A stretch of 64,000 bases of DNA. Origin: Modicisalibacter tunisiensis. Lineage in GTDB: Bacteria; Pseudomonadota; Gammaproteobacteria; Pseudomonadales; Halomonadaceae. The stretch spans positions 186,001 through 250,000 of the forward strand of contig NZ_JAGXFD010000002.1 of NCBI RefSeq assembly GCF_020148005.1. The letters run 5' to 3'. This document shows, in pieces, positions 34,136 to 49,422 of this stretch. A program made the position numbers and the translations under genes. The notes under the pieces were generated by a model that did no database searches, was not told the origin of the DNA, and saw nothing but the letters and a program-made list of their open reading frames with translations. The number at the start of each line of letters is the position of its first letter. The stretch's first letter is position 1.

Positions 34136-34248
34136 CCTTTGGGGAGTAGCCGATCCTCGCTGCTGACGACGGCGAGGAGGCCTGCATCAACAAGCTCGAC
34201 GCCCACGTCGTGGTGCAGGCGACCGATTCCGGTTGGCGAGACCAAGGG
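34136..34248 (+). promoter_or_regulatory. yybP-ykoY manganese riboswitch upstream of mntP
   Basis: The leader contains both hallmark segments of the Mn2+-sensing yybP-ykoY aptamer: CTTTGGGGAGTAGCCGAT at the 5' side and GGTTGGCGAGACCAAGGG at the 3' side. Helix P1 forms between CCTTTGG (34136-34142) and CCAAGGG (34242-34248). It sits about 70 bases before mntP, where the same element controls mntP in Escherichia coli. A perfect eight-base hairpin (34113-34132) immediately precedes it. A promoter CTGGCA-N18-TAGCAT (34099-34128) is possible but weak. Confidence 0.88.
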
Positions 34249-34316
34249 CATACCGCGCGCTCGTGGTCGGGCGCGCGCGGCATGCCCCTGGCCAATCGCC
34301 CGACCCGGAGATGACC

Positions 34317-34889
34317 ATGACCCTGGCTTCCACCCTTCTGCTGGCCTTCGCCATGTCCACGGATGCCTTCGCCGCCGCCATCGGCAAGGGCGCCGCCCTC
34401 CAGCGCCCCCACTTCCGTGAAGCCCTGCGCACCGGCCTCATCTTCGGCAGCATCGAAGCCACCACGCCCGTCATCGGCTGGGCCATGGGCATGGCCGCCT
34501 CGCGCTACGTCGCCGAGTGGGACCACTGGATCGCCTTCACCCTGCTGCTGCTGCTCGGCGGGCACATGATCAAGGAAGGCTTCTCGCAGAGTGAGGACGA
34601 GGAAAACGAACGCCCCACCCGGCACTCCTTCCTGCGCCTGGCGCTGACCGGCTTCGCCACCAGCATCGACGCGATGGCGGTGGGCGTCGGGCTCGCCTTC
34701 GTCGATGTCAACATCGTCTCCACCGCCGCGTTCATCGGCCTGGCGACCCTGACCATGGTGACGCTGGGCGTCATGCTCGGCCGCGTGCTCGGTCAGGTGG
34801 TCGGTCAGCGCGCCGAGATCGTCGGCGGCGTGATCCTGATCGGCATCGGCTCGCTGCTGCTGATGGAGCACCTCGGCGTGCTGGCCTGA
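34317..34889 (+). CDS. mntP: Manganese efflux pump MntP
   Basis: The 190-residue, six-helix inner-membrane protein exports Mn2+. Two repeated motifs characterise it: [15 protein letters not shown] in helix 1 and [17 protein letters not shown] in helix 4, both with the metal-binding aspartate, plus [12 protein letters not shown] lies six bases before the second of two ATGs, giving the start at 34317. The upstream yybP-ykoY riboswitch ties its expression to manganese excess. Confidence 0.95.
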
Positions 34890-35020: not shown

Positions 35021-35698
35021 ATGACCTCGCCCTCTCTCCATCTCCAAGACTGGCGCGCCTGGCTCCCCGACGGCGACGCCGAGCGCGATGCCCGCATCGT
35101 CACCGACGCCCGCCCCGCCGGCCGCTCGCTGCCGGCGATGCTGCGCCGCCGCGTCAACCTGGCCGGGCGCGCGGTCGCCGACCTGCTCGCCGAGCTGGAC
35201 CCCGGCGCGGACAGCATCCTGCTGCACGCCTCGCGCCACGGGGATGGCGAGCGCACGCTCGAACTGCTCTACGCGCTCGCCGAATCGGCCCCGCTGTCAC
35301 CGGCCCGCTTCGGGCTCTCCGTGCACAACGCCGTGCTGGGCGTCTACTCCATCGCCAGCGGCAACCGTCGCTCGCTGCAGGCGATCGCCGCCGGCGGCGA
35401 CGAGCTGGCCGCCCTGTTCAGCGAGGCCCGCGGCTACCTGGCCGAGGGCGCGCCCCGGGTCATCGCCGTGTTCAGCGATGTGCCGGTACCGCCGCGCTTT
35501 GCCGCCCATGCACCGGCGTCCCGCGGGGCGGCGGCACTCGCCATGCGCCTGACGCTCGACAGCGGCCGGGCGATCCACGAATCCCCCTGGCAGGGTGGCG
35601 GCGAGCCCCCGCAGCCCGTCGATGTCATCGCCTGGCTGCGTACCGGCGGCGAGCTGGGCAGCCCGCTGCGCGGCCGCGCCTGGCGCCTGGCCCCCTGA
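35021..35698 (+). CDS. Ketosynthase-like chain length factor of the aryl polyene cluster
   Basis: The 225-residue protein is of the Ketoacyl-synt_2 family, found in aryl polyene clusters as the partner (CLF, ApeC-like) of the active ketosynthase. FGLSVHNAVLGVYSIASGNRRS is the family core; the ketosynthase active-site cysteine is missing, as expected for a chain length factor. It is the first gene of a 15-gene run. The ATG at 35021 is preferred over a GTG six codons upstream. The stop overlaps the next start (TGATG). Confidence 0.85.
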   Translation: MTSPSLHLQDWRAWLPDGDAERDARIVTDARPAGRSLPAMLRRRVNLAGRAVADLLAELDPGADSILLHASRHGDGERTLELLYALAESAPLSPARFGLSVHNAVLGVYSIASGNRRSLQAIAAGGDELAALFSEARGYLAEGAPRVIAVFSDVPVPPRFAAHAPASRGAAALAMRLTLDSGRAIHESPWQGGGEPPQPVDVIAWLRTGGELGSPLRGRAWRLAP

Positions 35699-36486
35699 TG
35701 GCGTTCGCCTCGATCCGGGCACCCCGCATGACCCGCCACCTCGACCCGCTATGGCGCCGGCTGATCACCCCGCTGGCCTTCGTTGGCTTCGCCGTCGCCG
35801 CCCTGACGGTGGGCGCGGTGCTCGCCCCCCTGACGCGCCTGGCCAGCCCCGACCGGGCCGCCGCCCAGCGACGCACCCGACACCTGGTGCGCCTGACCTG
35901 CCGGGGCTTTCTGGCCGCCCTGCGCCACGCCCGGCTGATCGACTACCGGGTATCCGGCGTCGAGCGGCTGGCCGCCGGGGGGCACCTGCTGCTGGCCAAC
36001 CATCCCACCCTGCTCGATGCCCTGTTCCTGCTCGCCTTCACGCCGAATGCCAACTGCATCGTCAAGGGGCCTCTCGCCCGTCACCCGGTCACGGCCGGGG
36101 TGATTCGCGCCGCCGGCTTCATCACCAACCGCCGGCCACGCGCCACGCTCAGGGCGGCATGCCGGGCGCTGGCCGACGGCCAGTCGCTGATCGTGTTCCC
36201 CGAGGGCACCCGCTCGACGCCCGGACGGCCGGTGCGGCTGCGCCGCGGCGGTGCCGCCATCGCCGTGACCAGCCATGCCGTCATCACCCCGGTGCGCATC
36301 GACTGCCGCCCCAGTACCCTGACCAAGGGCGAGCCGTGGTATCGTGTGCCGCCGCGCCGTCCCGCGTTTCGCATTGCGGTCGGCCCGCCGATCCCGCCCA
36401 CCGTGCCGTCGCAGGCCGCACCGCGGGCGATCGGTGATCTGACGCAGCATCTGGAAGCCTATTTCAACCGCCCCCACAAGGGATGA
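35698..36486 (+). CDS. Lysophospholipid acyltransferase (aryl polyene cluster)
   Basis: The 262-residue membrane-bound PlsC-type acyltransferase has an N-terminal hydrophobic helix, motif I NHPTLLD (H-x4-D), motif II region FITNRRPR and motif III FPEGTRS. In aryl polyene clusters such enzymes (ApeD-like) help attach the polyene to its glycerolipid or sugar-lipid anchor. It overlaps the CLF gene and lies seven bases before the acyl carrier gene. Confidence 0.88.
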   Translation: MAFASIRAPRMTRHLDPLWRRLITPLAFVGFAVAALTVGAVLAPLTRLASPDRAAAQRRTRHLVRLTCRGFLAALRHARLIDYRVSGVERLAAGGHLLLANHPTLLDALFLLAFTPNANCIVKGPLARHPVTAGVIRAAGFITNRRPRATLRAACRALADGQSLIVFPEGTRSTPGRPVRLRRGGAAIAVTSHAVITPVRIDCRPSTLTKGEPWYRVPPRRPAFRIAVGPPIPPTVPSQAAPRAIGDLTQHLEAYFNRPHKG

Positions 36487-36493
36487 GGGAGCC

Positions 36494-36757
36494 ATGACGA
36501 CAGACCTGGAACACGAGCTCAAGCAACTGATCATCGATACCCTGGAACTCGAGGATGTCACCCCCGAGGACGTCGACCCCGACGAACCGCTGTTCGTCGA
36601 GGGCCTGGGACTCGATTCCATCGACGCGCTCGAACTGGGCCTGGCACTGCAGAAGCGTTACGGCATCCAGCTGGAAGCCGACAGCGACGAAACCCGGCGC
36701 CATTTCGCCAACCTGCGCACCCTGGCGGCGCTGGTCGAGGCGCGCCGTACCCAGTAG
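36494..36757 (+). CDS. Acyl carrier protein (aryl polyene cluster)
   Basis: The 87-residue acidic helical protein carries the phosphopantetheine site S42 in GLGLDSIDALEL. It should carry the aryl starter and the growing polyene. APE clusters usually encode two ACPs in tandem; only this one is visible here, as the 23-base gap after it cannot hold another. Confidence 0.92.
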   Translation: MTTDLEHELKQLIIDTLELEDVTPEDVDPDEPLFVEGLGLDSIDALELGLALQKRYGIQLEADSDETRRHFANLRTLAALVEARRTQ

Positions 36758-36780
36758 CCCGCGCCGACGCACGCCACCGC

Positions 36781-37332
36781 ATGGTCCGGCCCTTCCCCTC
36801 GCGCCCACCCGCCGGCCTGCCGATCGCTGCGGCGACCCTGGCCTGGCCCTGGCTGGTCACCCGCTGGCCGGTGGCCGGCGGCTGGCCCTGGCTGGTGATG
36901 CTGGCCGGGCTCGTCGCCTGGCGCCTGCCGGCCGGCCACCGGCGCTGGGCCCTCTGGCTGGGCATCCCCGCCGTGCTGCTGGCGGCGGCGGGGGAAGCCA
37001 CCCTGGTCCTCCGGCTCTGGCCGGTGCTGGTCAACGCCGCCCTGCTGGGCCTGTTCGCCCATTCGCTGCGTCACCCGCCGAGCGTCATCGAGCGGCTCGC
37101 GCGGCGTCAGACGCCGGACCTGCCGCCCAGCGGCGTGCGCTATACCTACCGGGTCACCCAGCTGTGGTGCGGCTTCTTCGTCGTCAACGGCAGTCTGGCG
37201 CTGGCCACGGTGATCCATGGCGACCCCGCGCTGTGGTCGCTGTACAACGGCGGCCTGGCCTATATGGCCATGGCCCTGCTGTTCGCCGGCGAGTGGCTCG
37301 TGCGCCGGCGCGTCAAGAAGAGGGCTTCGTGA
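36781..37332 (+). CDS. COG4648-type membrane protein (aryl polyene cluster)
   Basis: A 183-residue inner-membrane protein with about five hydrophobic helices, beginning AAATLAWPWLVTRWPVAGGWPW. The conserved part SGVRYTYRVTQLWCGFFVVNGSLAL and the basic tail VRRRVKKRAS fit the COG4648 (ApeG-like) family regularly found in aryl polyene clusters. Function unknown. Its TGA overlaps the ATG of the ligase gene. Confidence 0.8.
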   Translation: MVRPFPSRPPAGLPIAAATLAWPWLVTRWPVAGGWPWLVMLAGLVAWRLPAGHRRWALWLGIPAVLLAAAGEATLVLRLWPVLVNAALLGLFAHSLRHPPSVIERLARRQTPDLPPSGVRYTYRVTQLWCGFFVVNGSLALATVIHGDPALWSLYNGGLAYMAMALLFAGEWLVRRRVKKRAS

Positions 37333-39044
37333 TGAGCGATTCCCCCCTGCGCCAGGCTCGCTGGCGCGACCCGGACCCGACCCGGTGCGTCGGCTGGCTG
37401 CCCACCGGCCGCGTCACCCTGGCCGACTTCCAGCGGCGCATCGGCGCCTGGCAGGCCTGTCTCGACACGCTCGCCGAGCCCGGTCGCTGCTATGCCCTGC
37501 ATGACCGTGACCCGCTGGTCTTCGCCAGTGCCCTGCTGGCCCTGTGGGAGCGCGGCGACAGCGCCCTGCTGCCCGCCGACGACCGCCCCGAGACCCTGGC
37601 CGGCGTGGATGCCCTGACCCGGGCCCGGCTGGGCGACGTGCCCGGCGGCCATCGCCCCAGCACCGGCGCCGCCCCGCGCTGGGGAACCCTGAGCGCCGAG
37701 CGCACGGCGCTCTGGCTGTACACCTCCGGCTCCACCGGCGCGGCGAAGCGCATTCCCAAGTCCTTCGCCCAGCTCGATGCCGAACTGGCCACGCACCGCG
37801 ACCTCTGGCCGCTCGAAGGGCGGCTGACGATCAGCCAGGTCAGCCACCAGCACATCTACGGCCTGCTGTTCGCCATCCTGCGCCCCCTGGTCGAGGCGGC
37901 GCCGATGGCCGGCGCCCTGTGCCGCTACCCGGAGACCCTGCACGCCTGGCTCGCCGCCCTGGATGAGACGAGCCAGACCGTGCTGATCAGCGCCCCGCCG
38001 CCGCTGGAACGGCTGCCCGAGACCCTCGACTGGCCCCGGGTGCGACAGCGCCTGGCCGCCGTCTACAGTTCCGGCGCCCCGCTGCCGGCCGCGGCGGGAC
38101 GGCGCACGCAGCGGCTGCTGGATGCGCCGGTCCGCGAGCTCTACGGCAGCTCGGATACCGGCGGCATCGCCTGGCGCGGCGTTCCCCGCCAGGACGACGC
38201 CTGGACGCCGCTTCCCGGGATCGCGGTGCGTGCCGACCGCGACGACGATCACCTGTGGCTGCGCTCGCCCTATCTCGACAGCCGCGACTGGCAACGCCAG
38301 GCCGATCGCATCCGCGAGGCCGGCGACGGCCGCTTTCAGCTGCTGGGTCGCGCCGATCGCATCGCCAAGGTCGGCGGCAAGCGCCTGTCGCTGACCGCCA
38401 TGGATCGTGCCCTGGAAGCGGCCGATGGCGTGCGCCGGGCCCGCACCGTGGTGCTGCCCGAGCCCAGCGGCCGGCTCGGGGCGATCGTCCAGCTCGACCC
38501 GGCCGGGATCCCCATCGAGCACGGCGCCCGCCGGCAACGCATCGCCGCCCTGCGCGAGCGGCTCGCCCGCGCCTTCGAGCCCACGGTGATCCCCCGCGCC
38601 TGGCGCTTCGTCGAGACCTGGCCCGTCAACGCCCAGGGCAAGCTCACCGTGGAACGTGTCGAGCGGCTGTTCCGCGACCGGCTGGACCACCGGCAGCCGC
38701 GCTGGCTGGGCGTCGAGGCATCCGCCGACGGGTGCTGCCACGTCACCCTCGAGGTGCCGGAACGCCTCGCCCATCTGGCCGGGCACTTCCCCGGCCGGCC
38801 GGTGGTGCCGGGGGTGGTGATGATCCAGTGGACGTGCGACCTGGCCCGGGAACACCTCGGCGTGACCGGGGCCTTCTCGCGCCTGGAGCGGGTCAAGTTC
38901 CCCCAGCTGCTGCCTCCCGGCGAACGCGTCACCCTGGCCCTCGAGTGGCACGGCGACATGCAGCGGCTGGATTTCCGCCTCAGCGGCCGTCACGGCTGCC
39001 ATGCCAGCGGCCGGATGCACTTCCGTGCAGGAGACCCGTCATGA
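37332..39044 (+). CDS. AMP-ligase fused to a hotdog dehydratase (aryl polyene cluster)
   Basis: The 570-residue two-domain protein. Residues 1 to about 450 form an acyl-adenylate ligase with the P-loop-like TSGSTGAAKRIPKSF, ELYGSSDTGG, and GRADRIAKVGGKRLS near its C-terminus. It should activate the aryl acid starter and load it on the ACP. Residues about 455-570 are a FabA/FabZ-like hotdog domain (LAGHFPGRPVVPGVVMIQW) matching the dehydratase ApeI, a separate gene in Escherichia coli. The fusion links starter loading with chain dehydration. Confidence 0.87.
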   Translation: MSDSPLRQARWRDPDPTRCVGWLPTGRVTLADFQRRIGAWQACLDTLAEPGRCYALHDRDPLVFASALLALWERGDSALLPADDRPETLAGVDALTRARLGDVPGGHRPSTGAAPRWGTLSAERTALWLYTSGSTGAAKRIPKSFAQLDAELATHRDLWPLEGRLTISQVSHQHIYGLLFAILRPLVEAAPMAGALCRYPETLHAWLAALDETSQTVLISAPPPLERLPETLDWPRVRQRLAAVYSSGAPLPAAAGRRTQRLLDAPVRELYGSSDTGGIAWRGVPRQDDAWTPLPGIAVRADRDDDHLWLRSPYLDSRDWQRQADRIREAGDGRFQLLGRADRIAKVGGKRLSLTAMDRALEAADGVRRARTVVLPEPSGRLGAIVQLDPAGIPIEHGARRQRIAALRERLARAFEPTVIPRAWRFVETWPVNAQGKLTVERVERLFRDRLDHRQPRWLGVEASADGCCHVTLEVPERLAHLAGHFPGRPVVPGVVMIQWTCDLAREHLGVTGAFSRLERVKFPQLLPPGERVTLALEWHGDMQRLDFRLSGRHGCHASGRMHFRAGDPS

Positions 39045-39805
39045 CCCCGGCTCGCCCCTGCGTCCTGATCCCGGTCTACAACCACGAACAGGCCATCGGC
39101 CGCACCTGCGCGGCGATCCGCGAGCGCCTCGGCCTGCCGCTGCTGCTGGTCGACGACGGCAGCGACCCGGCGTGCGCCGCGACGCTCGACGCCCTGGCGG
39201 CGGCCGATGATGTCCAGCTGATCCGCCTGCCGCGCAATCGTGGCAAGGGCGCGGCGGTCAAGGCCGGCCTCGCCGAGGCGCAACGCCGGGGCTACACCCA
39301 CGCCCTGCAGGTCGACGCCGACGGCCAGCACGACCCCGCCGACCTGCCCGCCTTCGTCGCCGACCTCGCCGCCGACGACGAACGCCTGCGCATCGGCTAT
39401 CCGCGCTTCGACGCCAGCGTACCGCGCCACCGCTTCTACGCCCGCTACCTGACCCACGGCATGGTCTGGCTCGACACCCTGTCGTTCGCCCTGCGGGACA
39501 CCATGTGCGGCGTCAAGCTGTTTCCCGTGGCCGCCACCCGCCGGCTCCTCGCTCGTCACGGCTGCGGCGAGCGCATGCAGCTCGACACCGAACTGCCGGT
39601 GCGCTGGGTCTGGGCGGGCGGTGAGGTGCTCAACCTCCCGGTTCGGGTACACTATCCGCTCGACGGGGTGTCGCACTTCGCCCTCGGCCGCGACAACGCG
39701 CTGCTGGTGGCGATGCATCTGCGGCTGTTCGCCGGCATGCTCTGCCGCCTGCCACGCCTGGTGTGGCGCCACGTCAAGCGAACCACCGGGAGGAACGACG
39801 CGTGA
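39041..39805 (+). CDS. Family 2 glycosyltransferase (aryl polyene cluster)
   Basis: The 254-residue GT-A-fold glycosyltransferase begins VLIPVYNHEQAI, with the metal-binding DADGQHDP and the acceptor region DTMCGVKLFPV. In APE clusters of enterobacteria this domain is joined to an acyltransferase (ApeJ); here the two are separate but overlapping genes. It may add a sugar or related group to the polyene lipid. ATGA overlap with the ligase gene. Confidence 0.87.
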   Translation: MTPARPCVLIPVYNHEQAIGRTCAAIRERLGLPLLLVDDGSDPACAATLDALAAADDVQLIRLPRNRGKGAAVKAGLAEAQRRGYTHALQVDADGQHDPADLPAFVADLAADDERLRIGYPRFDASVPRHRFYARYLTHGMVWLDTLSFALRDTMCGVKLFPVAATRRLLARHGCGERMQLDTELPVRWVWAGGEVLNLPVRVHYPLDGVSHFALGRDNALLVAMHLRLFAGMLCRLPRLVWRHVKRTTGRNDA

Positions 39806-40746
39806 ACGCCACGGAAAAGGCGCCGCGCCACTGGGCGCGCATCCAGGAATCGGGCAGCGTCGCCGGCATGCGGATCATGGTCTGGATCCGTCGCCGGCTG
39901 GGCCCCCTGCCATTTCGCTTCATGCTGGCATGGGTGATTCTCTACTACTATCTGCGCCGCCCGCTGGCCCGGCGTGCCTCGCGGCGCTATCTCAAGCGCA
40001 TCTGGCCGTACCATGCCGGCGGCGCGCCCGGCGGCATGGCGTTGCTGGTGATGCGCCACTTCTGGGCCTTCGGGCGCTCACTGATGGACAAGGTCGACGT
40101 CTGGAGCGGCCTGGCGCTGGATGTACGCATCCCCGATGCCGACCGCGCCCGGCTGGACGCCGCCATCCGCAGCGGCCGGGGCGGGCTGATGCTGGTCTCG
40201 CATCACGGCAACCTCGAGATCTGCAGCGCCATGAGCCACACCCGGGACGACTTCCACGTCACCCAGCTGATGCACACCCGCAACGCCGAGAAGTTCAACA
40301 CCCTGCTGGCCCAGGCGACCCACCGTCGCCCCCCCGAGATCGTCGAGGTCAGCGAGATCACGCCCGCCACCGCGATGCGCCTGGCCCGGCGCATCGATGC
40401 CGGCGGCTTCGTGGTGATCGCCGCCGATCGCGTGCCGGTGGGCGAGTCCGGGCGCACCCGGGACCTGGACTTCCTCGGCGACGCCGCGCCCTTTCCCGAA
40501 GGCCCGTTCCGGCTGGCCGCGCTGCTGCGCTGTCCGATCTACACGCTGGGCTGCGTGCGCGACGGCGATCATCACCGCATCACCTTCGAGCCGTTCGATG
40601 ACACATCCACCCTGAGGCGCCGTGATCGCGACGCCTGGTGCGATGCCGCCATGCCCCGCTACGTCGCCTGGCTGACCGAGCAGTGCCGGCGTCACCCGCT
40701 GCAATGGTTCAACTTCTTTCCCTTCTGGCACGCCGATGACCGCTGA
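39802..40746 (+). CDS. LpxL/HtrB-like acyltransferase (aryl polyene cluster)
   Basis: The 314-residue membrane-associated acyltransferase is related to lipid A late acyltransferases. An N-terminal hydrophobic segment (FMLAWVILYYYL) precedes the active-site SHHGNLEIC, and ADRVPVGESGR lies later. It starts at GTG 39802, with GGGAGG eight bases before it and a GTGA overlap with the glycosyltransferase stop. It probably acylates the polyene lipid anchor together with the PlsC-like enzyme. Confidence 0.85.
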   Translation: MNATEKAPRHWARIQESGSVAGMRIMVWIRRRLGPLPFRFMLAWVILYYYLRRPLARRASRRYLKRIWPYHAGGAPGGMALLVMRHFWAFGRSLMDKVDVWSGLALDVRIPDADRARLDAAIRSGRGGLMLVSHHGNLEICSAMSHTRDDFHVTQLMHTRNAEKFNTLLAQATHRRPPEIVEVSEITPATAMRLARRIDAGGFVVIAADRVPVGESGRTRDLDFLGDAAPFPEGPFRLAALLRCPIYTLGCVRDGDHHRITFEPFDDTSTLRRRDRDAWCDAAMPRYVAWLTEQCRRHPLQWFNFFPFWHADDR

Positions 40747-42310
40747 CAACACTCGCCCCTGGCTGACGCTGGACGGCACCCCCGTCCCGCTCGAGAGCGT
40801 CGCGCGGGTCGCGCGGCGCGACTGCCGCGTGCGCCTCACCGACGCCCCTGCCTTCCGCCGCCGCATCGAGGCCGGCCCGGCCTTTCTCGAGCGCCTGCTC
40901 GACGAGGACGGCGTCATCTACGGCGTGACCACCGGCTTCGGCGACGCCTGTACCCGCGCGGTACCCGCCGACCAGCTCGAGGCCCTGCCCCGACAGCTGT
41001 ATACCTTCCATGGCTGCGGCCTGGGCGAGGTGCTGGACGTCGAGACCGCCCGCGCCGTGGTCGTCGTGCGGCTGATCTCGCTGTGCCGCGGCCTGTCCGG
41101 GGCGTCGTGGACCCTGCTCGAACGCCTCGTCTGGCTGCTCGAGGAGGACGTGATACCGGTCATCCCCACCGAAGGCTCGGTGGGCGCCAGCGGCGACCTC
41201 ACCCCGCTGTCGTACCTGGCCGCGGTGCTCTGCGGCGAACGCGAGGTCTACGACCGCGGCCACCGCCGCGCCACCGCCGAGGCCTTCGCCGAGCGCGGCC
41301 TCGCCCCCTACCGGCTGCGCCCCAAGGAAGGCCTGGCGCTGATGAACGGTACCGCGGTGATGACCGCCCTGGCCTGCCTGGCCTGGGAGCGCGCCGAACA
41401 TCTCTCGCGGCTCGCCACTCGGGCCACGGCGATGAACGTCTGGGCGCTGGACGGCAACCCCTACCACTTCGACGCCACCCTGTTCGCCGCCAAGCCGCAT
41501 CCCGGCCAGCAGCGCATCGCCGCCCGCCTGCGCGCCGATCTTGCCGTCGACGCCGAGGCCCGCACCCCACGCAACTCGCCGCGCCTGCAGGACCGCTACT
41601 CGACCCGCTGCGCGCCGCACGTGATCGGCGTGCTCGAGGACAGCCTCGGCTGGCTGCGCCGCTTCATCGAGGACGAGCTCAACAGTGCCAACGACAACCC
41701 GCTGATCGACCCCGACGGCGAGACGGTGCTGCACGGCGGCCATTTCTATGGCGGTCACATCGCCTTCGCCATGGACGCGCTGAAGCCCCTGGCCGCCAAC
41801 CTCGCCGACCTGCTCGACCGCCAGCTGGCCCTGCTGGTCGACCCCCGCTACAACCACGGCCTGCCGGCCAACCTGAGCGGCGCCGAGCCCGAGCGCGCGG
41901 CGCTCAACCACGGCTACAAGGCGGTGCAGATCGGTGTCTCGGCGTGGACGGCCGAGGCGCTCCAGCACAGCCTGCCGGCCAGCGTCTTCTCGCGCTCCAC
42001 CGAGTGCCACAATCAGGACAAGGTGAGCCTGGGCACCATCGCCGCCCGCGATGCCCTGCGCGTGCTCACGCTCGTCGAGCAGGTCGTCGCCGGCGTGCTC
42101 CACGCCGCCTGCCAGGCACTCGAGCTGCGCCGGAGCCTGAGCGACGAGCCGCCGGCGGTGCTGGCCGCCTGGCTCGCCGCCTGCCGCACGCACATCGCGC
42201 CGCTGGCCGAGGACCGCCCCCTCGAGGACGAGCTGCGACGGCTGTGTCGGGTCCTGCCCGAACTCGCCGCCACGCTGTACCCCGACACCCCGGCCCACAC
42301 CGCCGACTGA
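40736..42310 (+). CDS. Aromatic amino acid ammonia-lyase (aryl polyene cluster)
   Basis: The 524-residue homotetrameric-family enzyme removes ammonia from an aromatic amino acid to give an aryl acrylate. The MIO cofactor triad A151-S152-G153 lies in VGASGDLTPLSYL, and the catalytic tyrosine in YGVTTGFGD is residue 62. At the substrate-selectivity position, where tyrosine lyases have HL, phenylalanine lyases FL and histidine lyases SH, this protein has F91-H92. Its place in the polyene cluster implies it makes cinnamate or p-coumarate as starter rather than urocanate. It overlaps the acyltransferase gene by 11 bases. Confidence 0.88.
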   Translation: MTADNTRPWLTLDGTPVPLESVARVARRDCRVRLTDAPAFRRRIEAGPAFLERLLDEDGVIYGVTTGFGDACTRAVPADQLEALPRQLYTFHGCGLGEVLDVETARAVVVVRLISLCRGLSGASWTLLERLVWLLEEDVIPVIPTEGSVGASGDLTPLSYLAAVLCGEREVYDRGHRRATAEAFAERGLAPYRLRPKEGLALMNGTAVMTALACLAWERAEHLSRLATRATAMNVWALDGNPYHFDATLFAAKPHPGQQRIAARLRADLAVDAEARTPRNSPRLQDRYSTRCAPHVIGVLEDSLGWLRRFIEDELNSANDNPLIDPDGETVLHGGHFYGGHIAFAMDALKPLAANLADLLDRQLALLVDPRYNHGLPANLSGAEPERAALNHGYKAVQIGVSAWTAEALQHSLPASVFSRSTECHNQDKVSLGTIAARDALRVLTLVEQVVAGVLHAACQALELRRSLSDEPPAVLAAWLAACRTHIAPLAEDRPLEDELRRLCRVLPELAATLYPDTPAHTAD

Positions 42311-42330
42311 CCCATCGACCGGAGATTGTC

Positions 42331-42894
42331 ATGCGCCTGTTCGTACTGCTCATGCTGGGACTGCTGTCGAGTCCGGCCCTGGCCTTCGACCTCGCCGACC
42401 TCCAGCACCGGCTCGGCGACACCCAGGGGTTGAGCGGTCGCTTCGTGCAGACCCGCCACCTCGCCGACCTGGATACCGATCTGGAGAGCCGCGGGCACTT
42501 CACCTATCAGCGCGGTAAGCGGGTCGTCTGGGCGCTGGAGCAACCGGTCGAGGACCGCCAGGTCTTCACGCCCGCCGACGCCCGCGCGGCGGACGACGCG
42601 CCGGGCGATACCGGCGATGACCGACGCCGTCGCCAGATCGCCGCACTGCTGCTGAACCTGCTCGACGGCGACTGGCAGGCGCTCGAACGGCGCTTCTCGC
42701 TGACCCTGAGCGGCGACGCCACGGCCTGGCAGGTGGCGCTCGCGCCCCGCCAGGCCGCCCTGCGCGAGCGTCTCGCCGAGGTGACGCTCGCCGGCGGCCG
42801 CTACGTCGAGCGCCTGCGGCTCGAGACCGCCGACGGCGACACCCTCACGGTACGCTTCAGCGACCTGCAGCCCCTGGCCGGAAGCGACCCGTGA
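42331..42894 (+). CDS. LolA-like outer-membrane lipoprotein carrier (aryl polyene cluster)
   Basis: The 187-residue periplasmic protein has a signal peptide ending near SPALA. FVQTRHLADLDTDLESRGHFTYQRGKRVVW is the LolA-like core. It is expected to chaperone the polyene lipid across the periplasm. GGAG six bases before the ATG supports this start; the frame is open much further upstream only as antisense-like shadow of the lyase gene. Confidence 0.85.
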   Translation: MRLFVLLMLGLLSSPALAFDLADLQHRLGDTQGLSGRFVQTRHLADLDTDLESRGHFTYQRGKRVVWALEQPVEDRQVFTPADARAADDAPGDTGDDRRRRQIAALLLNLLDGDWQALERRFSLTLSGDATAWQVALAPRQAALRERLAEVTLAGGRYVERLRLETADGDTLTVRFSDLQPLAGSDP

Positions 42895-45239
42895 CGCGCC
42901 CGGCGGCCCTCGGCAAGCACCTCGCCCGGCTATGGGGGCTGGTGCTGTTGGCCGGCGTGGTGAGCCTGGCCTGGCAGCTGCGCGACGGGCTGCCCAGCGA
43001 CACGCGACTGACCGCGCTGCTGCCCCAGGACCGCCAGAATCCGCTGCTCGAACGCGCCGACGCCCGGCTCGGCCGCGCCTTCGAGGATCGCTTCGTGCTG
43101 CTGCTTGACGCGCCGGCCCTGCCCCGGGCCACCGCCGATCTCGCCGAGCGGCTCTCCGCCGCCGACGGCGGCCGGCTGCTGACCCGCCTCGACTGGCGGG
43201 ACGTGGACTTCGCCGACAGCGATCCCGCCGCCGTTTTAGGCCCTTACCGCTACCGGCTGCTCACTCCGTCGCTGCGGCAGGCGATCGAGCAGGACGGCGG
43301 CACCTCGCTGGTTCAGCCGGCCCTGGCGCGGCTGTTCTCGCCGGGTGGCGACCCCGAGCCGGTGGCCGACCCCTTCGGGCTGCTCGACCGCTGGCTGGCC
43401 CAGCAGGACGACAGCCCCGTCTCGAGCTGGCAGGGCCTGCTCACGGTGCGTGACCGGGATGGCACGCGCCGCTCGCTGCTGATCGGCCGGCTGGCCGACA
43501 CCCCCTATGCCCCGTCGGCCCAGCAGGCACTCACTCGGGCGCTGCGTGCCTTCGAAGCCGCGCATCCCGATGCCCGGCTGCTGCATTCGGGGCTGATCTT
43601 CCACGCCGCCGGCGGCGCGCGTCAGGCCCGCCACGAGATCACCACCATCGGGCTGGGGGCCTTTCTGGCGCTGATCGTCATCCTGCTGGCGGTGTTTCGC
43701 TCGCCACGCACCCTGCTCGCCCTGCTGCTGCCGCTGGCCGGCGGCCTGCTGGTCGCCACGCCGCTGACGCTGGCGCTGTTCGGCCGGCTGCACCTGCTCA
43801 CCCTGGCCTTCGGTGCCAGCCTGATCGGCGTGGCCATCGACTATGCCCTGCACCTGCAGTGCGAACGCGCCGTCCAGGGCCGGCGCTTTCACCTGCGGCC
43901 GCTGCTACCCGGCCTGGCCCTGGGGCTGGTTTCCAGCCTCGCCGCCTATCTGGCCCTGGCCCTCGCACCGATGCCGGGGCTGCGCCAGATGGCCCTGTTC
44001 GCCGCCGCCGGGCTCGCCGGTGCCTGGCTGACCGGCGTGCTGTGGCTGCCCCGCCTGGCGCTGCCGGTGCACCCCGCCACCGCCCGGATCGCCGCACGCT
44101 GGTGGTCGCTCACCACGCCGCGCCGCACGCTGGCGCCCGGCTGGCTGGCCGTGGCGGCGCTGATCCTGCTGGGCGTGACCGCCGGGCGGCTGACCGCCGA
44201 CGACAGCCTGCGCCTGCTCAACCCCTCGTCGTCCGCACGGCTGGCCGAGGAGCGCCGGGTCCAGAGCCTGCTGGGCCGCGACACCGGCAGCCGCTACTTC
44301 CTGGTGACCGCCGATGACGAGCCCGCCCTGCTCGAGCGGCTGGCCGAACTCGGTCAGCGACTGGACACGGCCAGCGCCGACGGCCTGACGATCGGCTACC
44401 GCAACCTGGCCGACCATGTGCCGCCGCCCCGCATTCAGGACGCCAATCTCGCCGCGGTGCGCCGCCTCTACGGCGAGCCGCTGGCGACGCTGGTCGAACG
44501 CGCCGGCCTGCCGGGCTCGGTGATCGCCAAGGCCCGCGCCACCCTCGACAGCGTGCCGCGGCTGGATGTCGCCACCTGGCTCGACGCCCCCGCCGGCACG
44601 GCCGACCGCCGGCTGTGGCTGGGGCCGGTCACGGCCGACGACGGCACCACGCGCCTGGCCGCCACCCTGGTGCTCAACGGCGTCGACAGCGCGGCGGAAG
44701 GCCGGCGCCTGGCGGCCCTCGCCGACGCCCGGCCCGATGTCTGCTACGTCGATCGCGTGGCGCGCCTGTCGCGACTGCTCGGCGAGCTGCGCCGGCACGT
44801 CAGCCTGTGGGTCGGCCTGGCCCTGGCCCTGCTGACCGCCGGGCTCGTGCTGCGCTACCGTCGGCAGGCCTGGCGCGTGGTCACGCCCGCGCTGGGCGCC
44901 CTGCTCGGCACCCTGGCGGTGTACGCCGTCGCGGGGGTGCCGTTGAACGTGTTCAGCCAGCTGGGCATGCTGCTGGTGCTGGGGATCGGCCTGGACGCCG
45001 GCATCTTCAGCGCCGAGCATGCGCGGCGCCCGGCGACCTGGCTGGCGGTCAGCCTGTCCACGCTGACCAGCGTGCTGGCCTTCGGCCTGCTCGCGTTCAG
45101 CGCCACGCCGGCGCTGCACTACCTGGGGCTGACCTGCCTCATCGGCCTGACGCTGGTCGGGCTGCTGGTGCCCTGGGTGCGTCCCGCCCCGCCTCGCATC
45201 AAGGAGAGACCACATGGCGAACCTTGCCCCGCGCGCTGA
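42891..45239 (+). CDS. MMPL-family lipid exporter (aryl polyene cluster)
   Basis: The 782-residue RND-superfamily exporter: one N-terminal helix, a large periplasmic domain, six helices including LALIVILLAVFRSPRTLLALLLPL, then a second periplasmic domain and six more helices. It resembles the hopanoid/mycolipid and APE exporters. It would move the finished polyene lipid from inner to outer leaflet for LolA. GTG start at 42891 overlaps the LolA stop. The final residues overlap the oxidoreductase gene by 26 bases. Confidence 0.88.
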   Translation: MTRPAALGKHLARLWGLVLLAGVVSLAWQLRDGLPSDTRLTALLPQDRQNPLLERADARLGRAFEDRFVLLLDAPALPRATADLAERLSAADGGRLLTRLDWRDVDFADSDPAAVLGPYRYRLLTPSLRQAIEQDGGTSLVQPALARLFSPGGDPEPVADPFGLLDRWLAQQDDSPVSSWQGLLTVRDRDGTRRSLLIGRLADTPYAPSAQQALTRALRAFEAAHPDARLLHSGLIFHAAGGARQARHEITTIGLGAFLALIVILLAVFRSPRTLLALLLPLAGGLLVATPLTLALFGRLHLLTLAFGASLIGVAIDYALHLQCERAVQGRRFHLRPLLPGLALGLVSSLAAYLALALAPMPGLRQMALFAAAGLAGAWLTGVLWLPRLALPVHPATARIAARWWSLTTPRRTLAPGWLAVAALILLGVTAGRLTADDSLRLLNPSSSARLAEERRVQSLLGRDTGSRYFLVTADDEPALLERLAELGQRLDTASADGLTIGYRNLADHVPPPRIQDANLAAVRRLYGEPLATLVERAGLPGSVIAKARATLDSVPRLDVATWLDAPAGTADRRLWLGPVTADDGTTRLAATLVLNGVDSAAEGRRLAALADARPDVCYVDRVARLSRLLGELRRHVSLWVGLALALLTAGLVLRYRRQAWRVVTPALGALLGTLAVYAVAGVPLNVFSQLGMLLVLGIGLDAGIFSAEHARRPATWLAVSLSTLTSVLAFGLLAFSATPALHYLGLTCLIGLTLVGLLVPWVRPAPPRIKERPHGEPCPAR

Positions 45240-46473
45240 CGCCAGCGACGTGGTCGTGATCGGCGCCGGCCCCGCCGGTGCCCTGGCCGCCGCCCGACTC
45301 GCCGACAGCGGCCATCGGGTCCAGGTCGTCGAGCGCACGCGCTTCCCGCGCTTCTCGATCGGCGAGAGCCTGCTGCCCCAGTGCATGGCGCCGCTCGAGC
45401 GCGCCGGGCTGCTCGACGCCGTCCTGGCCGGCGACTACCAGCCCAAGAACGGCGCCGCCTTCACCCGCCGCGGCGTATCGACCGTCATCGACTTCCACGA
45501 CAAGACCACGCCGGGCTGGGCCACCACCTTCCAGGTGGAACGGGCCGACTTCGACCAGCGCCTGATCGAGGCCGCCCGGGCACGCGGCGCCCGGGTCGAC
45601 TTCGCCACCACGGTGGATGCCGTCGAGCCCGACGCCCGGCACCCCCGGCTCACGGTGCGCGATGACACCGGCCACACTCGACGGCTCGAGACGCGCTTCA
45701 TCCTCGATGCCAGCGGCTACGGCCGCGTGCTGGCCCGCCGGCTGGGGCTGGCCCGCGACCCGCGGCTCGAGTCCCGCACGGCCCTGTTCACCCATGTCGA
45801 CACCGGCCTCGACGACGACTTCGACCGCGAGAAGATCCTGATCGGCGTGCATCCCGACGATGCACAGCTGTGGTACTGGCTGATCCCGTTCCGCGACGGC
45901 CGTGCCTCGGTGGGCGTGGTCGGCGACACCGCGACCCTCGAGGCCGCCGGTGACGATGCCGAAAGCCGCTGGCGGACGCTGGTCGACGCCGAGCCGCGCT
46001 TCGCCGAGCTGCTCGCCGGGGCCCGACCGATACGCCCGGTGGACGCACTGGCCGGCTATTCCGCCGACGTCGAGCGCCTGCACGGCCCGGGCTTTGCGCT
46101 GCTGGGCAACGCCGGCGAATTCCTCGACCCGGTGTTTTCCTCGGGGGTGACCATCGCGCTGCGCTCGGCGGACATGGCCGTGCCGCTGGTCGAACGCACG
46201 CTGGCCGGCGAGTCGCCCGACTGGGCGGGCGAGTTCGAACGCCCGCTGCGCGCCGGGACCGCCACCTTTCGCGCCTTCGTCGAGGCCTGGTACGACGGCC
46301 GCCTGCAGCGCATCATCTTTCACCCCGACCCGCCCGCCGAACTGCGCCGCCGGATCAGCGCGGTACTCGCCGGCTACGCCTGGGACCGCGACAACCCGCT
46401 GGTCACCGCCAGCCGGCGGCGGCTCGACCTGCTGGCCGAGCTGTGCGGGCCTCTTCCGGAGGCCCGCCCATGA
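45214..46473 (+). CDS. FAD-dependent halogenase-like oxidoreductase (aryl polyene cluster)
   Basis: The 419-residue flavoprotein has the dinucleotide motif VVIGAGPAGALAAARL (17-22 core). Two hallmarks of flavin-dependent halogenases are visible: W220-Y-W-L-I-P225 (WxWxIP) and a lysine, K78 (QPKNGAAF), at the position of the essential halogenase lysine. It could therefore halogenate the aryl head group, as xanthomonadins are brominated. Equally it may be an oxidoreductase of the geranylgeranyl-reductase-like group, which shares parts of the pattern. AAGGAGAG five bases before the ATG supports the start. Confidence 0.82.
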   Translation: MANLAPRADASDVVVIGAGPAGALAAARLADSGHRVQVVERTRFPRFSIGESLLPQCMAPLERAGLLDAVLAGDYQPKNGAAFTRRGVSTVIDFHDKTTPGWATTFQVERADFDQRLIEAARARGARVDFATTVDAVEPDARHPRLTVRDDTGHTRRLETRFILDASGYGRVLARRLGLARDPRLESRTALFTHVDTGLDDDFDREKILIGVHPDDAQLWYWLIPFRDGRASVGVVGDTATLEAAGDDAESRWRTLVDAEPRFAELLAGARPIRPVDALAGYSADVERLHGPGFALLGNAGEFLDPVFSSGVTIALRSADMAVPLVERTLAGESPDWAGEFERPLRAGTATFRAFVEAWYDGRLQRIIFHPDPPAELRRRISAVLAGYAWDRDNPLVTASRRRLDLLAELCGPLPEARP

Positions 46474-47048
46474 AACGCCGTCCGGTCTGGCCGGCCGCCT
46501 GCCTGACATTGCTGCTCGGCGGTTGCTCGCTGGCCCCGCCGCTGCCGCCCGCGCCGCGCCAGTCTCTGGCCGCGACGGCGACCACCGTCCAGCGGCGCAT
46601 CAGCCTGATCCCGGACGACACGCGGCGCGCACCCCGGACCCTGCTGGCGGTGCTGCGCGTCCGGGGCGCCGGCTGGCGGGCGGCCTTCCTCACGCCCTAC
46701 GGTCAGCGGCTGGTGACCCTGATCCACGAGGACGGCGACAGCCGCTATCGCGAGGGCGACGTGCCGCTGGCGACGCTCGGCGACACGCTGCCGCCGGCCG
46801 ACTGGCTCGCCGCCCGGCTCGACTGGTGCCTGTGGCCGACGGCCGCGCTGCGGGCCGCCTTCGACGGCACGTCGTGGACGGTGGACGTCGCCGATGGAGC
46901 CCGTATCATTCGCCATCATGGACGCGCGGTAGCCCGGATCACCCCGGCCGACACCGAGTTCGCCCGCGCCGAGACGGTGCGGCTCGACGATCGTCGGGGT
47001 GGCTACCGCCTGCGCATTTCCCCGCTGCCGGAGACCTCCCATGAGTGA
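46470..47048 (+). CDS. DUF3261 lipoprotein (aryl polyene cluster)
   Basis: The 192-residue protein has a lipoprotein signal LTLLLGGCS (lipidated cysteine 19). The mature part (TTVQRRISLIPDD, FLTPYGQRLVTLIHEDG) fits DUF3261, outer-membrane lipoproteins regularly found in aryl polyene clusters. It may receive or anchor the polyene at the outer membrane, by analogy with LolB. ATGA overlap with the upstream gene and an eight-base overlap with the ketosynthase gene. Confidence 0.8.
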   Translation: MKRRPVWPAACLTLLLGGCSLAPPLPPAPRQSLAATATTVQRRISLIPDDTRRAPRTLLAVLRVRGAGWRAAFLTPYGQRLVTLIHEDGDSRYREGDVPLATLGDTLPPADWLAARLDWCLWPTAALRAAFDGTSWTVDVADGARIIRHHGRAVARITPADTEFARAETVRLDDRRGGYRLRISPLPETSHE

Positions 47049-48243
47049 TGCCACTGTTCGATCGCCGTGCCGTCTCTCCGCCCCCGGCGTGGTCTGCAGC
47101 CTGGGCGACGACCCGCGGCACCTGATCGCGGCCCTGCGCGAAGGCCGCCGAGGGCTGACGACGAGCGATACCTTCACCCCCGGCCGACGCCTGCCGCTGG
47201 GCCGGGTGACCGTGCCATTGCCCGCCGACGAGGCCTGGCCGGCGGCGCACCGCAGCCGCAACAACCGGCTGCTGGCCCGGGCCCTCGAGCGCCTGGGGCC
47301 AAGCCTCGAGGCCGTGCTGGCACGCCACCCCCGCGAGCGCATCGGCGTGGTGCTGGGCAGCAGCACCTCGGGGATCGGCGAGACCGAGCAGGCGCTGGCC
47401 GTCGCCGGGCGCGACGGCCCGCTGCCGGAGGACTTCCACTACGCCCGCCAGGAGCTGGGCGCCCCGGCACGCTTCATCGCCGAGCGGCTGGGCCTGGCTG
47501 GGCCGGTGCATATCCTGTCCACGGCGTGCAGCTCCAGCGCCCAGGCCCTGGCCAGCGCGCGACGCCTGCTGCTGGCCGGGGAGTGCGACGCGGTGATCGC
47601 CGGCGGCGCCGACAGCCTCTGCCGGCTGACGGTCAACGGCTTCGCCAGTCTCGAGGCGGTCAGCGACGCGCCCAGCCTGCCGTTTTCCGCCAACCGCGCC
47701 GGCATCAACCTCGGCGAGGCCGCCGCGCTGTTCTTGGTGACCCGCGAGCCCGGCGGCATTCAGCTGCTCGGCGCCGGCGAGAGCAGCGATGCCTACCATG
47801 TCAGTGCCCCGCGCCCCGACGGCAGCGGCGCCCGCGCGGCGATGGCCGCCGCCCTGGACCAGGCCGGTTGCGCGCCCGAGGCGGTGGACTACCTCAACCT
47901 GCACGGCACCGGCACCGGCACCGGCCACAACGATGCCATGGAGGCCCGGGCGGTCAGCGAGCTGTTCGCCACACCCCCGGCCTGCAGCTCCACCAAGGCA
48001 TTGACCGGGCATACGCTGGGTGCGGCCGGCGCGCTGGAGGCCGCGTTCTGCTGGCTGGCCCTGCACCACGGCTTCCTGCCGCGCCATGTGCATGACGGCG
48101 TCGACGACCCCGAGCTGCCGCGACTGCCGCTGGTCAACACTCCCGAAGGGGCGCCCCGCGTCGCGCTGTCCAATTCCTTCGCCTTCGGCGGCAACAACGT
48201 CAGCCTGCTGCTGGCCCGCGACGCGCCGGAGGACGGTCCATGA
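47041..48243 (+). CDS. Beta-ketoacyl-ACP synthase, polyene extending (aryl polyene cluster)
   Basis: The 400-residue ketosynthase has the complete triad C163 (TACSSSA), H288 (HGTGTGTGHND) and H324 (KALTGHTLGAAGA). It would pair with the chain length factor encoded first in the cluster (ApeO-like) and add malonyl units to the aryl starter. Most APE clusters carry a second ketosynthase after the ketoreductase gene; none is present here. Confidence 0.92.
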   Translation: MSDATVRSPCRLSAPGVVCSLGDDPRHLIAALREGRRGLTTSDTFTPGRRLPLGRVTVPLPADEAWPAAHRSRNNRLLARALERLGPSLEAVLARHPRERIGVVLGSSTSGIGETEQALAVAGRDGPLPEDFHYARQELGAPARFIAERLGLAGPVHILSTACSSSAQALASARRLLLAGECDAVIAGGADSLCRLTVNGFASLEAVSDAPSLPFSANRAGINLGEAAALFLVTREPGGIQLLGAGESSDAYHVSAPRPDGSGARAAMAAALDQAGCAPEAVDYLNLHGTGTGTGHNDAMEARAVSELFATPPACSSTKALTGHTLGAAGALEAAFCWLALHHGFLPRHVHDGVDDPELPRLPLVNTPEGAPRVALSNSFAFGGNNVSLLLARDAPEDGP

Positions 48244-48692
48244 CGCCCCTGCCCTGCGCGATCGCGCCCTACGTCCCCCAGCAGGGGGCCATGTGTCTGC
48301 TCGATCGCCTGCTGGCGGTGGACGAGACCTCGCTGAGTGCCAGCGTCGACCCCGCCACCAATCGCCTGTTCCATAGCGACGGCGCGGTGCCGGGCTGGGT
48401 CGCCCTCGAGTGGCTGGCGCAGGGCGTCGCCGCCTGGGCCGGCTGGCACGCCGCCCGGCACGGTGCGACCCCGGCGGTGGGGTTTCTCGTCGGCACGCGA
48501 CGCTTCACCAGCCACCGCCCCGCCTTCCCGGTGGACCGGGCGCTGCGCGTGCAGGTCACGCGTGATTTCGTCGCCGACAACGGCCTGGCCCACTTCGCGG
48601 GCCGGGTGCTTGCGGCCGACGACGACACCCTGCTGGCCGAGGGCCGGCTGACCATCTTCCAGCCCGCCGACGAGGAGGCCACGCATGCCTGA
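48240..48692 (+). CDS. Hotdog-fold dehydratase (aryl polyene cluster)
   Basis: The 150-residue protein resembles ApeP-type 3-hydroxyacyl-ACP dehydratases: MCLLDRLLAVDE, then the family ending with VGFLVGTRRFTSHRPAFPV. It would dehydrate the 3-hydroxy intermediate, either with or alternative to the dehydratase domain fused to the ligase. ATGA overlap with the ketosynthase and an eight-base overlap with the reductase gene. Confidence 0.83.
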   Translation: MTPLPCAIAPYVPQQGAMCLLDRLLAVDETSLSASVDPATNRLFHSDGAVPGWVALEWLAQGVAAWAGWHAARHGATPAVGFLVGTRRFTSHRPAFPVDRALRVQVTRDFVADNGLAHFAGRVLAADDDTLLAEGRLTIFQPADEEATHA

Positions 48693-49422
48693 CTCCCGCC
48701 CCGACACCGTCCTCGTCACCGGCTCGAGCCGCGGCATCGGCCGCGCCGTGGCCCTGCGCCTGGCCCGCGACGGCTTCGATGTGGTGCTGCACTGCCGTCG
48801 CCAGCAGGCGCAGGCCGAGAGGGTCGCGGAGGAGATTCGCGCCCTGGGGCGCGCGGCGCGGGTGCTGTGCTTCGACGTGACCGATCGCGCGGCGGCCCGC
48901 GTCGCCCTGGAAGCCGACATCGAGGCCCACGGCGCCTATTACGGGGTGGTCTGCAACGCCGGCATCACGGCCGACGGCGCCTTCCCGGCGCTGACCGACA
49001 CGGCCTGGGACAGCGTGCTGTCGACCAGCCTCGACGGCTTCTACAACGTGGTGCACCCGCTGGTCATGCCGATGATTCGTCGGCGGCGGCCGGGCCGCAT
49101 CGTGGTGATGTCCTCGGTGTCCGGGCTGATCGGCAACCGCGGCCAGGTCAACTACAGCGCCGCCAAGGCCGGGCTGATCGGCGCGGTCAAGGCGCTGGCG
49201 GTGGAGCTGGCCAAGCGGCGCATTACCGTCAACGCCGTGGCGCCGGGGTTGATCGAAACCGACATGGTCGACGCCGAGGCCACCGAGGCGGCCCGGCGCG
49301 CCATTCCCATGCAGCGCCCGGGCACTGCCGACGAGGTTGCCGGCGCAGTGAGCTTCCTGTGCGGCCCGGATGCCGGCTACATCACCCGGCAGGTACTCTC
49401 GGTCAACGGCGGGCTGTGCTAG
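48685..49422 (+). CDS. 3-Ketoacyl-ACP reductase, FabG-like (aryl polyene cluster)
   Basis: This is a 245-residue short-chain dehydrogenase. TGSSRGIGRAVAL binds NADPH, and the catalytic residues lie in SSVSGLIGNRGQVNYSAAKAG. It would reduce the 3-keto group of the growing polyene (ApeQ-like). It closes the 15-gene run; 114 bases then separate it from an unrelated membrane protein gene. Confidence 0.92.
   Translation: MPDSRPDTVLVTGSSRGIGRAVALRLARDGFDVVLHCRRQQAQAERVAEEIRALGRAARVLCFDVTDRAAARVALEADIEAHGAYYGVVCNAGITADGAFPALTDTAWDSVLSTSLDGFYNVVHPLVMPMIRRRRPGRIVVMSSVSGLIGNRGQVNYSAAKAGLIGAVKALAVELAKRRITVNAVAPGLIETDMVDAEATEAARRAIPMQRPGTADEVAGAVSFLCGPDAGYITRQVLSVNGGLC

Follow-up and report, generated by a model that had tools for sequence, protein, structure and literature searches.

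In 2013, a cluster from Lysobacter was described in which an aryl polyene (APE)-type pigment arises from one ketosynthase (KS) with its chain length factor (CLF) and one acyl carrier protein (ACP), and for which no thioesterase (TE) or methyltransferase (MT) was identified in the portion of the report available (PMC3691225). Deletions in the cluster of Escherichia coli (APE_Ec, apeA-R) further indicated that single losses are at least partly tolerated there: apeF and apeK deletions retain partial pigment, the main APE lipid is still made when apeR is deleted, and APE carboxylic acids are still produced when apeB is deleted (PMC8253772). Studies in vitro reported that the ApeO-ApeC pair alone gives full-length polyene, with ApeR adding throughput, and that ApeO-ApeC has a much higher affinity for ACP1 than for ACP2, whereas ApeR binds both about equally (PMC8358021). 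Within the Halomonadaceae, one antiSMASH arylpolyene cluster each is recorded for three Chromohalobacter strains (PMC10093197), and the literature listings for the family give no pointer to the gene losses considered here. The subject of the present analysis is a cluster from that family, located at positions 35021-49422 of a 64,000-nucleotide stretch of Modicisalibacter tunisiensis DNA (hereafter the window; contig NZ_JAGXFD010000002.1, positions 186,001 to 250,000), in which fifteen plus-strand genes form an APE cluster that is smaller than that of E. coli, that is likely to work, and that is shared across much of its lineage.

An earlier note on the window had assigned fifteen overlapping genes to an APE pathway, and family searches together with E. 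coli homologues uphold that assignment. Pfam and NCBIfam searches name 13 of the 15 genes, and the remaining two (the COG4648 gene and the MMPL exporter) are identified via E. coli homologues only. All fifteen reading frames are open, and adjoining genes do overlap by a few bases in most cases, apart from three short gaps (36487-36493, 36758-36780 and 42311-42330) to which the word ‘overlapping’ does not apply. Present are the core components of an E. coli-like system (an ApeO-like KS and half-size ApeC-like CLF, with ApeH, ApeE, ApeI, ApeP and ApeQ) as well as its envelope components (the ApeG, L, M and N transport set, and the acyl- and glycosyltransferases). The reductions that the note had listed are likewise found. 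A single KS is paired with the CLF, none follows the ketoreductase, and the only ACP is closer to ApeE than to ApeF (Table 1). The open reading frames (ORFs) of the region contain no match to ApeR or ApeK, using queries that succeed in 36 full-type loci of the family, and none to ApeB, which is also absent from every family locus (0/98) and is found in some outgroup loci; the claimed lack of a TE and an MT thus holds. The fusion of ligase and dehydratase, and the separation of glycosyltransferase (GT) from acyltransferase (AT), are evident from the Pfam domains of each ORF. Relative to E. coli, the cluster is therefore without ApeA, ApeB, ApeF, ApeK and ApeR, the absence of ApeA referring to the cluster, as no genome-wide search was made for it. 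What the earlier comparison left out, right as it was about the losses, is that the cluster also encodes an ammonia-lyase (40736-42310) and a halogenase-like enzyme (45214-46473).

The note had named the discovery of the missing genes at a second locus as the result that would overturn its proposal, and the host genome (3.55 Mb, 99.98% complete) was searched for them. PF00109 matched six places, comprising the cluster KS, two strong matches and three at 25-48 bits; apart from the KS of the cluster itself, the E. coli ApeR query matched just the two strong KSs, at 36% identity, and left the 25-48-bit places unmatched. By comparison, ApeR from 116 non-Enterobacterales loci shares 54-76% identity (median 60) with the E. 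coli protein. The search for a second ACP (ApeF, as PF00550) returned two ACPs in the whole genome, namely that of the cluster and one adjoining a non-cluster KS. The ApeK query produced a single weak match (24%, 23.6 bits), and the ApeB query, in a search that lacked a positive control, produced none. As far as these genome searches show, no true homologue of ApeR, ApeF, ApeK or ApeB is found outside the cluster, and the proposal is not overturned by this test.

The same results bear on the best-surviving alternative, in which primary metabolism is the putative supplier of the missing functions, FabF/FabB serving for ApeR, AcpP for ApeF and a housekeeping thioesterase for ApeK, and the cluster leaning on fatty acid synthase. 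The two other genomic KSs that resemble ApeR, one of them adjoining the only other ACP, would be suitable candidates, and the E. coli study proposes ApeE or AcpP as possible partial substitutes for ApeF (PMC8253772); the ability of ApeO-ApeC to yield full-length polyene by itself in vitro (PMC8358021) argues against any need for such a supply. This dependence is a serious possibility, to which somewhat less than an even chance is assigned.

Examination of the family demonstrated that the reduced form is widespread. The cluster KS was present in 98 of 275 Halomonadaceae genomes at E <= 1e-60, and 97 cluster regions were annotated; 96 family loci, the window included, were assessable once two at contig ends (L134, L173) were excluded, and seven named loci (L007-L011, L013, L021) were kept out of the counts as duplicates of genomes already in the family set. 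ApeF, ApeR and ApeK are all absent from 54 of the 96, six lack ApeF and ApeR only and keep ApeK, and 36 contain all three, so that 60 of the 96, the window among them, are without both ApeF and ApeR. The spacing between the ACP and ApeG matches bears these calls out, with a family median of 119 bases without ApeF versus 447 with it. Reduced clusters were found under eight genus codes, and the other KS-bearing genomes of the window’s genus code are reduced in 13 of 13 cases. Among the 80 top-scoring of 546 related loci, the window KS is 96% identical to that of ‘Halomonadaceae bacterium T82-2’ and 82% to that of M. coralii. The ligase-dehydratase fusion (96/97 family loci, 43/77 others, 0/9 Enterobacterales) and the GT/AT split (94/97, 50/83 and 0/9, respectively) are common outside Enterobacterales. 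The slim gene set is thus a lineage trait, a family-wide variant that is not new in kind. The earlier suggestion of a ‘minimal functional APE system’ is accordingly retained in part: the cluster does have fewer APE genes than its E. coli counterpart, and a minimal APE system is plausible in view of the at least partly tolerated single losses in E. coli and the one-KS, one-ACP cluster of Lysobacter, and it is probably functional; with 60 of 96 family loci alike and the Lysobacter precedent, it is not unusual. Elsewhere in the family, two genomes (L203, L204) have a rearranged cluster in which the LolA, MMPL and DUF3261 export genes lie upstream of the CLF. In six genomes of one genus code (L208-L213) the fetched region is without a CLF match, yet contains ApeO and ApeR; their CLF may be located elsewhere or be too divergent.

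What does appear to be new is the joint presence or absence of ApeF and ApeR, a lead that is worth keeping and for which no report was found in the portion of the literature on ApeR, ApeF and aryl polyene that was available. The comparison drew on 212 loci: 98 from the family (window included), 73 of the best 80 of 546 related loci, one from E. coli, and 40 from a class-level sample (the 40 best-scoring of 79 places, the window and G122 not counted). Both genes could not be assessed in 42 of these, and 170 were scored, with ApeR queries that had been trimmed after over-long versions made some loci appear to lack the reductase. In 23 outgroup loci ApeF was called by a genome-wide match (E <= 2.2e-17, identity 47-61%) whose position beside the KS was not checked, and a genome-wide search for ApeF was applied to 25 of the 47 named loci left unassessed. 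In all 170 of the assessable loci the two genes agree, with 100 containing both, 70 containing neither, and none containing one alone. Two apparent exceptions (L226, L227) were rejected, since ApeF is found immediately before the point where the locus had been cut, and both loci are concordant. On the KS tree, ApeF follows ApeR in all three supported independent contrasts (four in all), and over the same supported contrasts ApeK agrees with ApeR in about 1.4 of 3 and the lyase in about 0.8; a sign test on the ApeF/ApeR contrasts gives p = 0.25, significance being unreachable with so few. Within the family, the number of losses is one or two depending on the taxon set; where it is two, a single clade is rejected by an approximately unbiased (AU) test (p 0.0002).

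This co-absence points to a paired role, and suggests that ApeF and ApeR constitute one dispensable module. In its fullest form the proposal holds that they are a functional unit, supplying a dedicated additional carrier and condensing enzyme for the first stages of chain growth, and that APE clusters acquire or lose this unit as a whole, such that some Halomonadaceae would be natural knockouts whose pathway runs with just one ACP and one KS-CLF. The published binding of ApeO-ApeC and ApeR to the two ACPs fits such a pairing, and the proposal is advanced tentatively, at close to but still below even chances. Were it true, the unsettled role of two KSs and two ACPs would become testable across sister clusters, for which the 60 of 96 family clusters without the second pair, beside the 36 with it, provide a natural comparison.

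A further alternative, that the window contains a xanthomonadin-type cluster and not an E. coli-like one, is improbable. Its reduced content does resemble that of Lysobacter (one KS with CLF and one ACP, with neither TE nor MT identified in the available text), and Xanthomonas clusters also carry a halogenase gene (PMC3691225). Distant loci were assigned to the xanthomonadin type by adjacency of KS and CLF, as in Lysobacter, and the CLF directly follows the KS in 16 of the 20 loci taken as such (L239, L243-L261); in the window, the CLF comes first (35021) and the KS 12 kb later (47041), as in E. coli. In a 170-row KS tree, a single clade unites the family with every ApeR-bearing outgroup and includes none of the nine such rows, and a XanB2-type chorismatase was not recognised among the fifteen genes, the rest of the genome not having been searched. 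Given that clade, and with ApeR present in the nearest non-family rows, the slim content was, by inference from the tree, most simply reached separately from the xanthomonadin type.

Purifying selection on its genes, together with retention of the KS catalytic residues, makes it probable that the reduced set is functional. The ratio of nonsynonymous to synonymous divergence (dN/dS) is 0.09-0.64 against the congeners L119 (14 genes, the lyase being absent there) and L120 (15 genes). The catalytic Cys, His, His and Lys columns of the KS are invariant in the 210 rows counted, having been scored by alignment columns, as regular-expression counts gave false negatives. A search for compensating KS residues returned only one position, which is not informative: all 60 reduced family rows have Ala there, against Cys (35) or Ser (1) in the 36 full family rows, and ApeR-bearing outgroups mostly have Ala or Ser. 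That the cluster is instead decaying towards inactivation is highly doubtful, for although further losses occur in the family (ApeD was not seen in 49, nor the lyase in 43, of 60 ApeF-negative loci, L134 excluded), the open frames, the selection and the intact KS residues argue otherwise, as does the fact that clusters lacking both ApeF and ApeR persist under eight genus codes, at 60 of 96 loci.

Gene content, the searches for missing genes, conservation across the lineage, purifying selection and the ApeF/ApeR co-occurrence together argue for a working, lineage-specific reduced APE cluster of Halomonadaceae, a reading held to be likely. Its substrates, reactions, product and function are predicted, as is the direction of change (loss rather than gain). 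In the pathway so envisaged, the ammonia-lyase would convert tyrosine to p-coumarate, which the ligase half of the fused protein would load onto the single ACP; the one KS-CLF pair (ApeO-ApeC) would then perform every round of extension, with malonyl units carried by the same cluster ACP or by AcpP. The ketoreductase and two dehydratases would build the conjugated chain, without enoyl reduction, and its ring may be halogenated by the flavoenzyme. Attachment of the polyene to a lipid would fall to the acyltransferases and glycosyltransferase, and the ApeG/L/M/N-like proteins would carry the product to the outer membrane. The second ACP (ApeF) and second KS (ApeR), presumed lost as a unit, would have formed a shared booster of early elongation that is dispensable for the core, and ApeK would have been lost independently, on its own schedule.

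Several observations weigh against this reading. In E. coli, deletion of apeR also leads to accumulation of late intermediates, in vitro work cited in the same study had ApeR required for initiation, and the deletions described in the portion available are single, joint loss of ApeF, ApeR and ApeK not being among them (PMC8253772). The ApeF/ApeR co-occurrence depends on the three supported contrasts (four in all; p = 0.25), and the inferred number of family losses, one or two, shifts with the taxon set. Among individual loci, L055 was scored record-wide as lacking both genes (best ACP match 33%), its ACP region lying outside the fetched locus; L054 has ApeR and an ACP match of just 31%, and was left unassessed, since its contig is cut at the ApeF site.

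The ammonia-lyase (40736..42310) is the sole PF00221 match in the genome, which makes a role in histidine use unlikely. Of its two motif features that mark tyrosine ammonia-lyases (TALs) at the active site, the Ala-Ser-Gly triad of the 4-methylideneimidazol-5-one (MIO) group and the motif-2 Gln, both are present; motif 1, in which a His in first position is the TAL rule (PMC3992019), here reads Phe-His. Among lyase copies above 200 bits, the triad and the Gln occur in 109 of 109, with FH at motif 1 in 74 and YH in 35. FlxA of Chitinophaga, which combines a motif 1 like that of histidine ammonia-lyase (HAL) with a motif 2 like that of TAL or phenylalanine ammonia-lyase (PAL), prefers tyrosine 1010-fold (PMC3992019); because that enzyme has a comparable mixture of motifs and is strongly tyrosine-specific, the window lyase is probably a TAL by analogy, a prediction that the published motif-1 rule alone would not give. 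The idea that the lyase made ApeR dispensable, its cinnamoyl-type starter bypassing the first condensation proposed for ApeR, draws on the citation of ApeR as an initiation KS (PMC8253772) and on the window itself, which holds a lyase and no ApeR, and is rejected as very improbable, given that 57 of 60 lyase-bearing loci outside the family have ApeR (2 do not, 1 is not assessable), that within the family the lyase is found in 33 of 37 ApeF-positive versus 17 of 60 ApeF-negative loci (L134 excluded), and that tree contrasts reveal no agreement.

Lyase presence changes approximately seven times in the family on the KS tree, and three congeners (L119, which is M. coralii-like, L121 and L123) possess the same cluster minus the lyase. 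Between the window and its closest relative (L118), synonymous divergence (dS) is 0-0.008 across the acyltransferase-lyase-LolA stretch (approximately 39802-42894) and 0.15-0.32 in six genes on the 5' side, and the stretch is likely a recent recombination tract. Flavin-dependent halogenases display the motifs GxGPAG, WxWxIP and FxDPxFSxG. All three are found in 140 of 143 copies of the cluster flavoenzyme (seven duplicate loci included), the three exceptions including two fragments. Its best solved relative is PDB 3nix, annotated as a flavoprotein/dehydrogenase (E 1.9e-92), followed by halogenases such as CmlS (1.8e-40); judged from these resemblances, halogenation is possible.

Table 1. Genes of the APE cluster in the Modicisalibacter tunisiensis window (window coordinates; percentages are identities to E. 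coli proteins).
Gene product	Position	Strand	Supporting matches
CLF, ApeC-like half ketosynthase, 225 aa	35021..35698	+	PF13723 Ketoacyl-synt_2, E 5.8e-41; 29% to ApeC
Lysophospholipid acyltransferase, ApeD-like	35698..36486	+	PF01553; 40% to ApeD
Sole cluster ACP, ApeE-like	36494..36757	+	PF00550 PP-binding; 58% to ApeE vs 34% to ApeF
COG4648 membrane protein, ApeG-like	36781..37332	+	No Pfam match; 52% over 108 aa to ApeG
Fused acyl-ACP ligase (ApeH) and dehydratase (ApeI)	37332..39044	+	PF00501 AMP-binding and PF22818 ApeI-like in a single ORF
GT2 glycosyltransferase, N half of ApeJ	39041..39805	+	PF00535 Glycos_transf_2; 46% to ApeJ 7-254
Acyltransferase, C half of ApeJ	39802..40746	+	PF03279 Lip_A_acyltrans; 34% to ApeJ 245-550
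MIO aromatic ammonia-lyase, probably TAL	40736..42310	+	PF00221 Lyase_aromatic, E 5e-159; ASG triad, motif-2 Gln, motif-1 Phe-His
LolA-like carrier, ApeL	42331..42894	+	PF03548; 28% to ApeL
MMPL/RND exporter, ApeM	42891..45239	+	No Pfam match; 31% over 679 aa to ApeM
FAD-dependent halogenase-like enzyme	45214..46473	+	PF04820 Trp_halogenase; WxWxIP and FxDPxFSxG motifs; PDB 3nix and CmlS matches
DUF3261 lipoprotein, ApeN-like	46470..47048	+	PF11659
KS, ApeO-like	47041..48243	+	NCBIfam PRK09185, 470 bits (cut-off 407); 47% to ApeO; Cys/His/His/Lys kept
Dehydratase, ApeP-like	48240..48692	+	PF22817, E 1.3e-18
Ketoreductase, ApeQ/FabG2-like, last gene, no ApeR after it	48685..49422	+	TIGR01831, over cut-off; 58% to ApeQ

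On its upstream side the cluster is adjoined by a plus-strand gene for MntP manganese efflux (34233-34889). Before that lies a split Crp/Fnr-type regulator (33235-34076, plus strand), with its cNMP-binding domain in one frame and its Crp helix-turn-helix in another, presumably reflecting a frameshift or a sequencing error.

Among described systems, flexirubin clusters resemble that of the window in having an aromatic ammonia-lyase that feeds an aryl starter (FlxA; PMC3992019) and in the reductase, that of the window scoring with FlxB at 266 bits (under its cut-off of 340), whereas the window lyase reaches 301 of the 700 bits of the FlxA cut-off and no dialkylresorcinol genes were recognised among the fifteen. 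The xanthomonadin type of Lysobacter and Xanthomonas shares one KS with a half-size CLF, one ACP, two dehydratases and, in the text available, no identified TE or MT, as well as a halogenase in Xanthomonas that parallels the halogenase-like enzyme here; it differs in that KS and CLF are neighbours and that a XanB2-type enzyme is likely to provide 3-hydroxybenzoate as the starter (PMC3691225), where the window has CLF and KS 12 kb apart, and a lyase. Full-type clusters of Halomonadaceae (such as L163-L166) share the lyase, the halogenase-like enzyme and the fused ligase-dehydratase with the window; they and those of Stenotrophomonas (such as L017) have KSs that are 53-69% identical, and keep the ApeF, ApeK and ApeR that the window lacks. 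A contig labelled Bacillus subtilis SK7B5 (L019) also contains an APE cluster resembling the Stenotrophomonas loci, and that assembly is probably mislabelled or contaminated.

The E. coli cluster (APE_Ec, PMC8253772; compared as strain GPEC548, L087) shares with the window the order CLF-PlsC-ACP-G-ligase-dehydratase-GT-AT-LolA-MMPL-DUF3261-KS-dehydratase-ketoreductase, with homologues of ApeC, D, E, G, H, I, J, L, M, O, P and Q at 28-58% identity and the DUF3261 gene in the place of ApeN. Against that common framework, the window is without ApeA, B, F, K and R, has its ligase and dehydratase fused and its GT and AT split, and adds the ammonia-lyase and the halogenase-like enzyme; if its head group differs from that of E. 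coli, these two additions would be the likelier reason.

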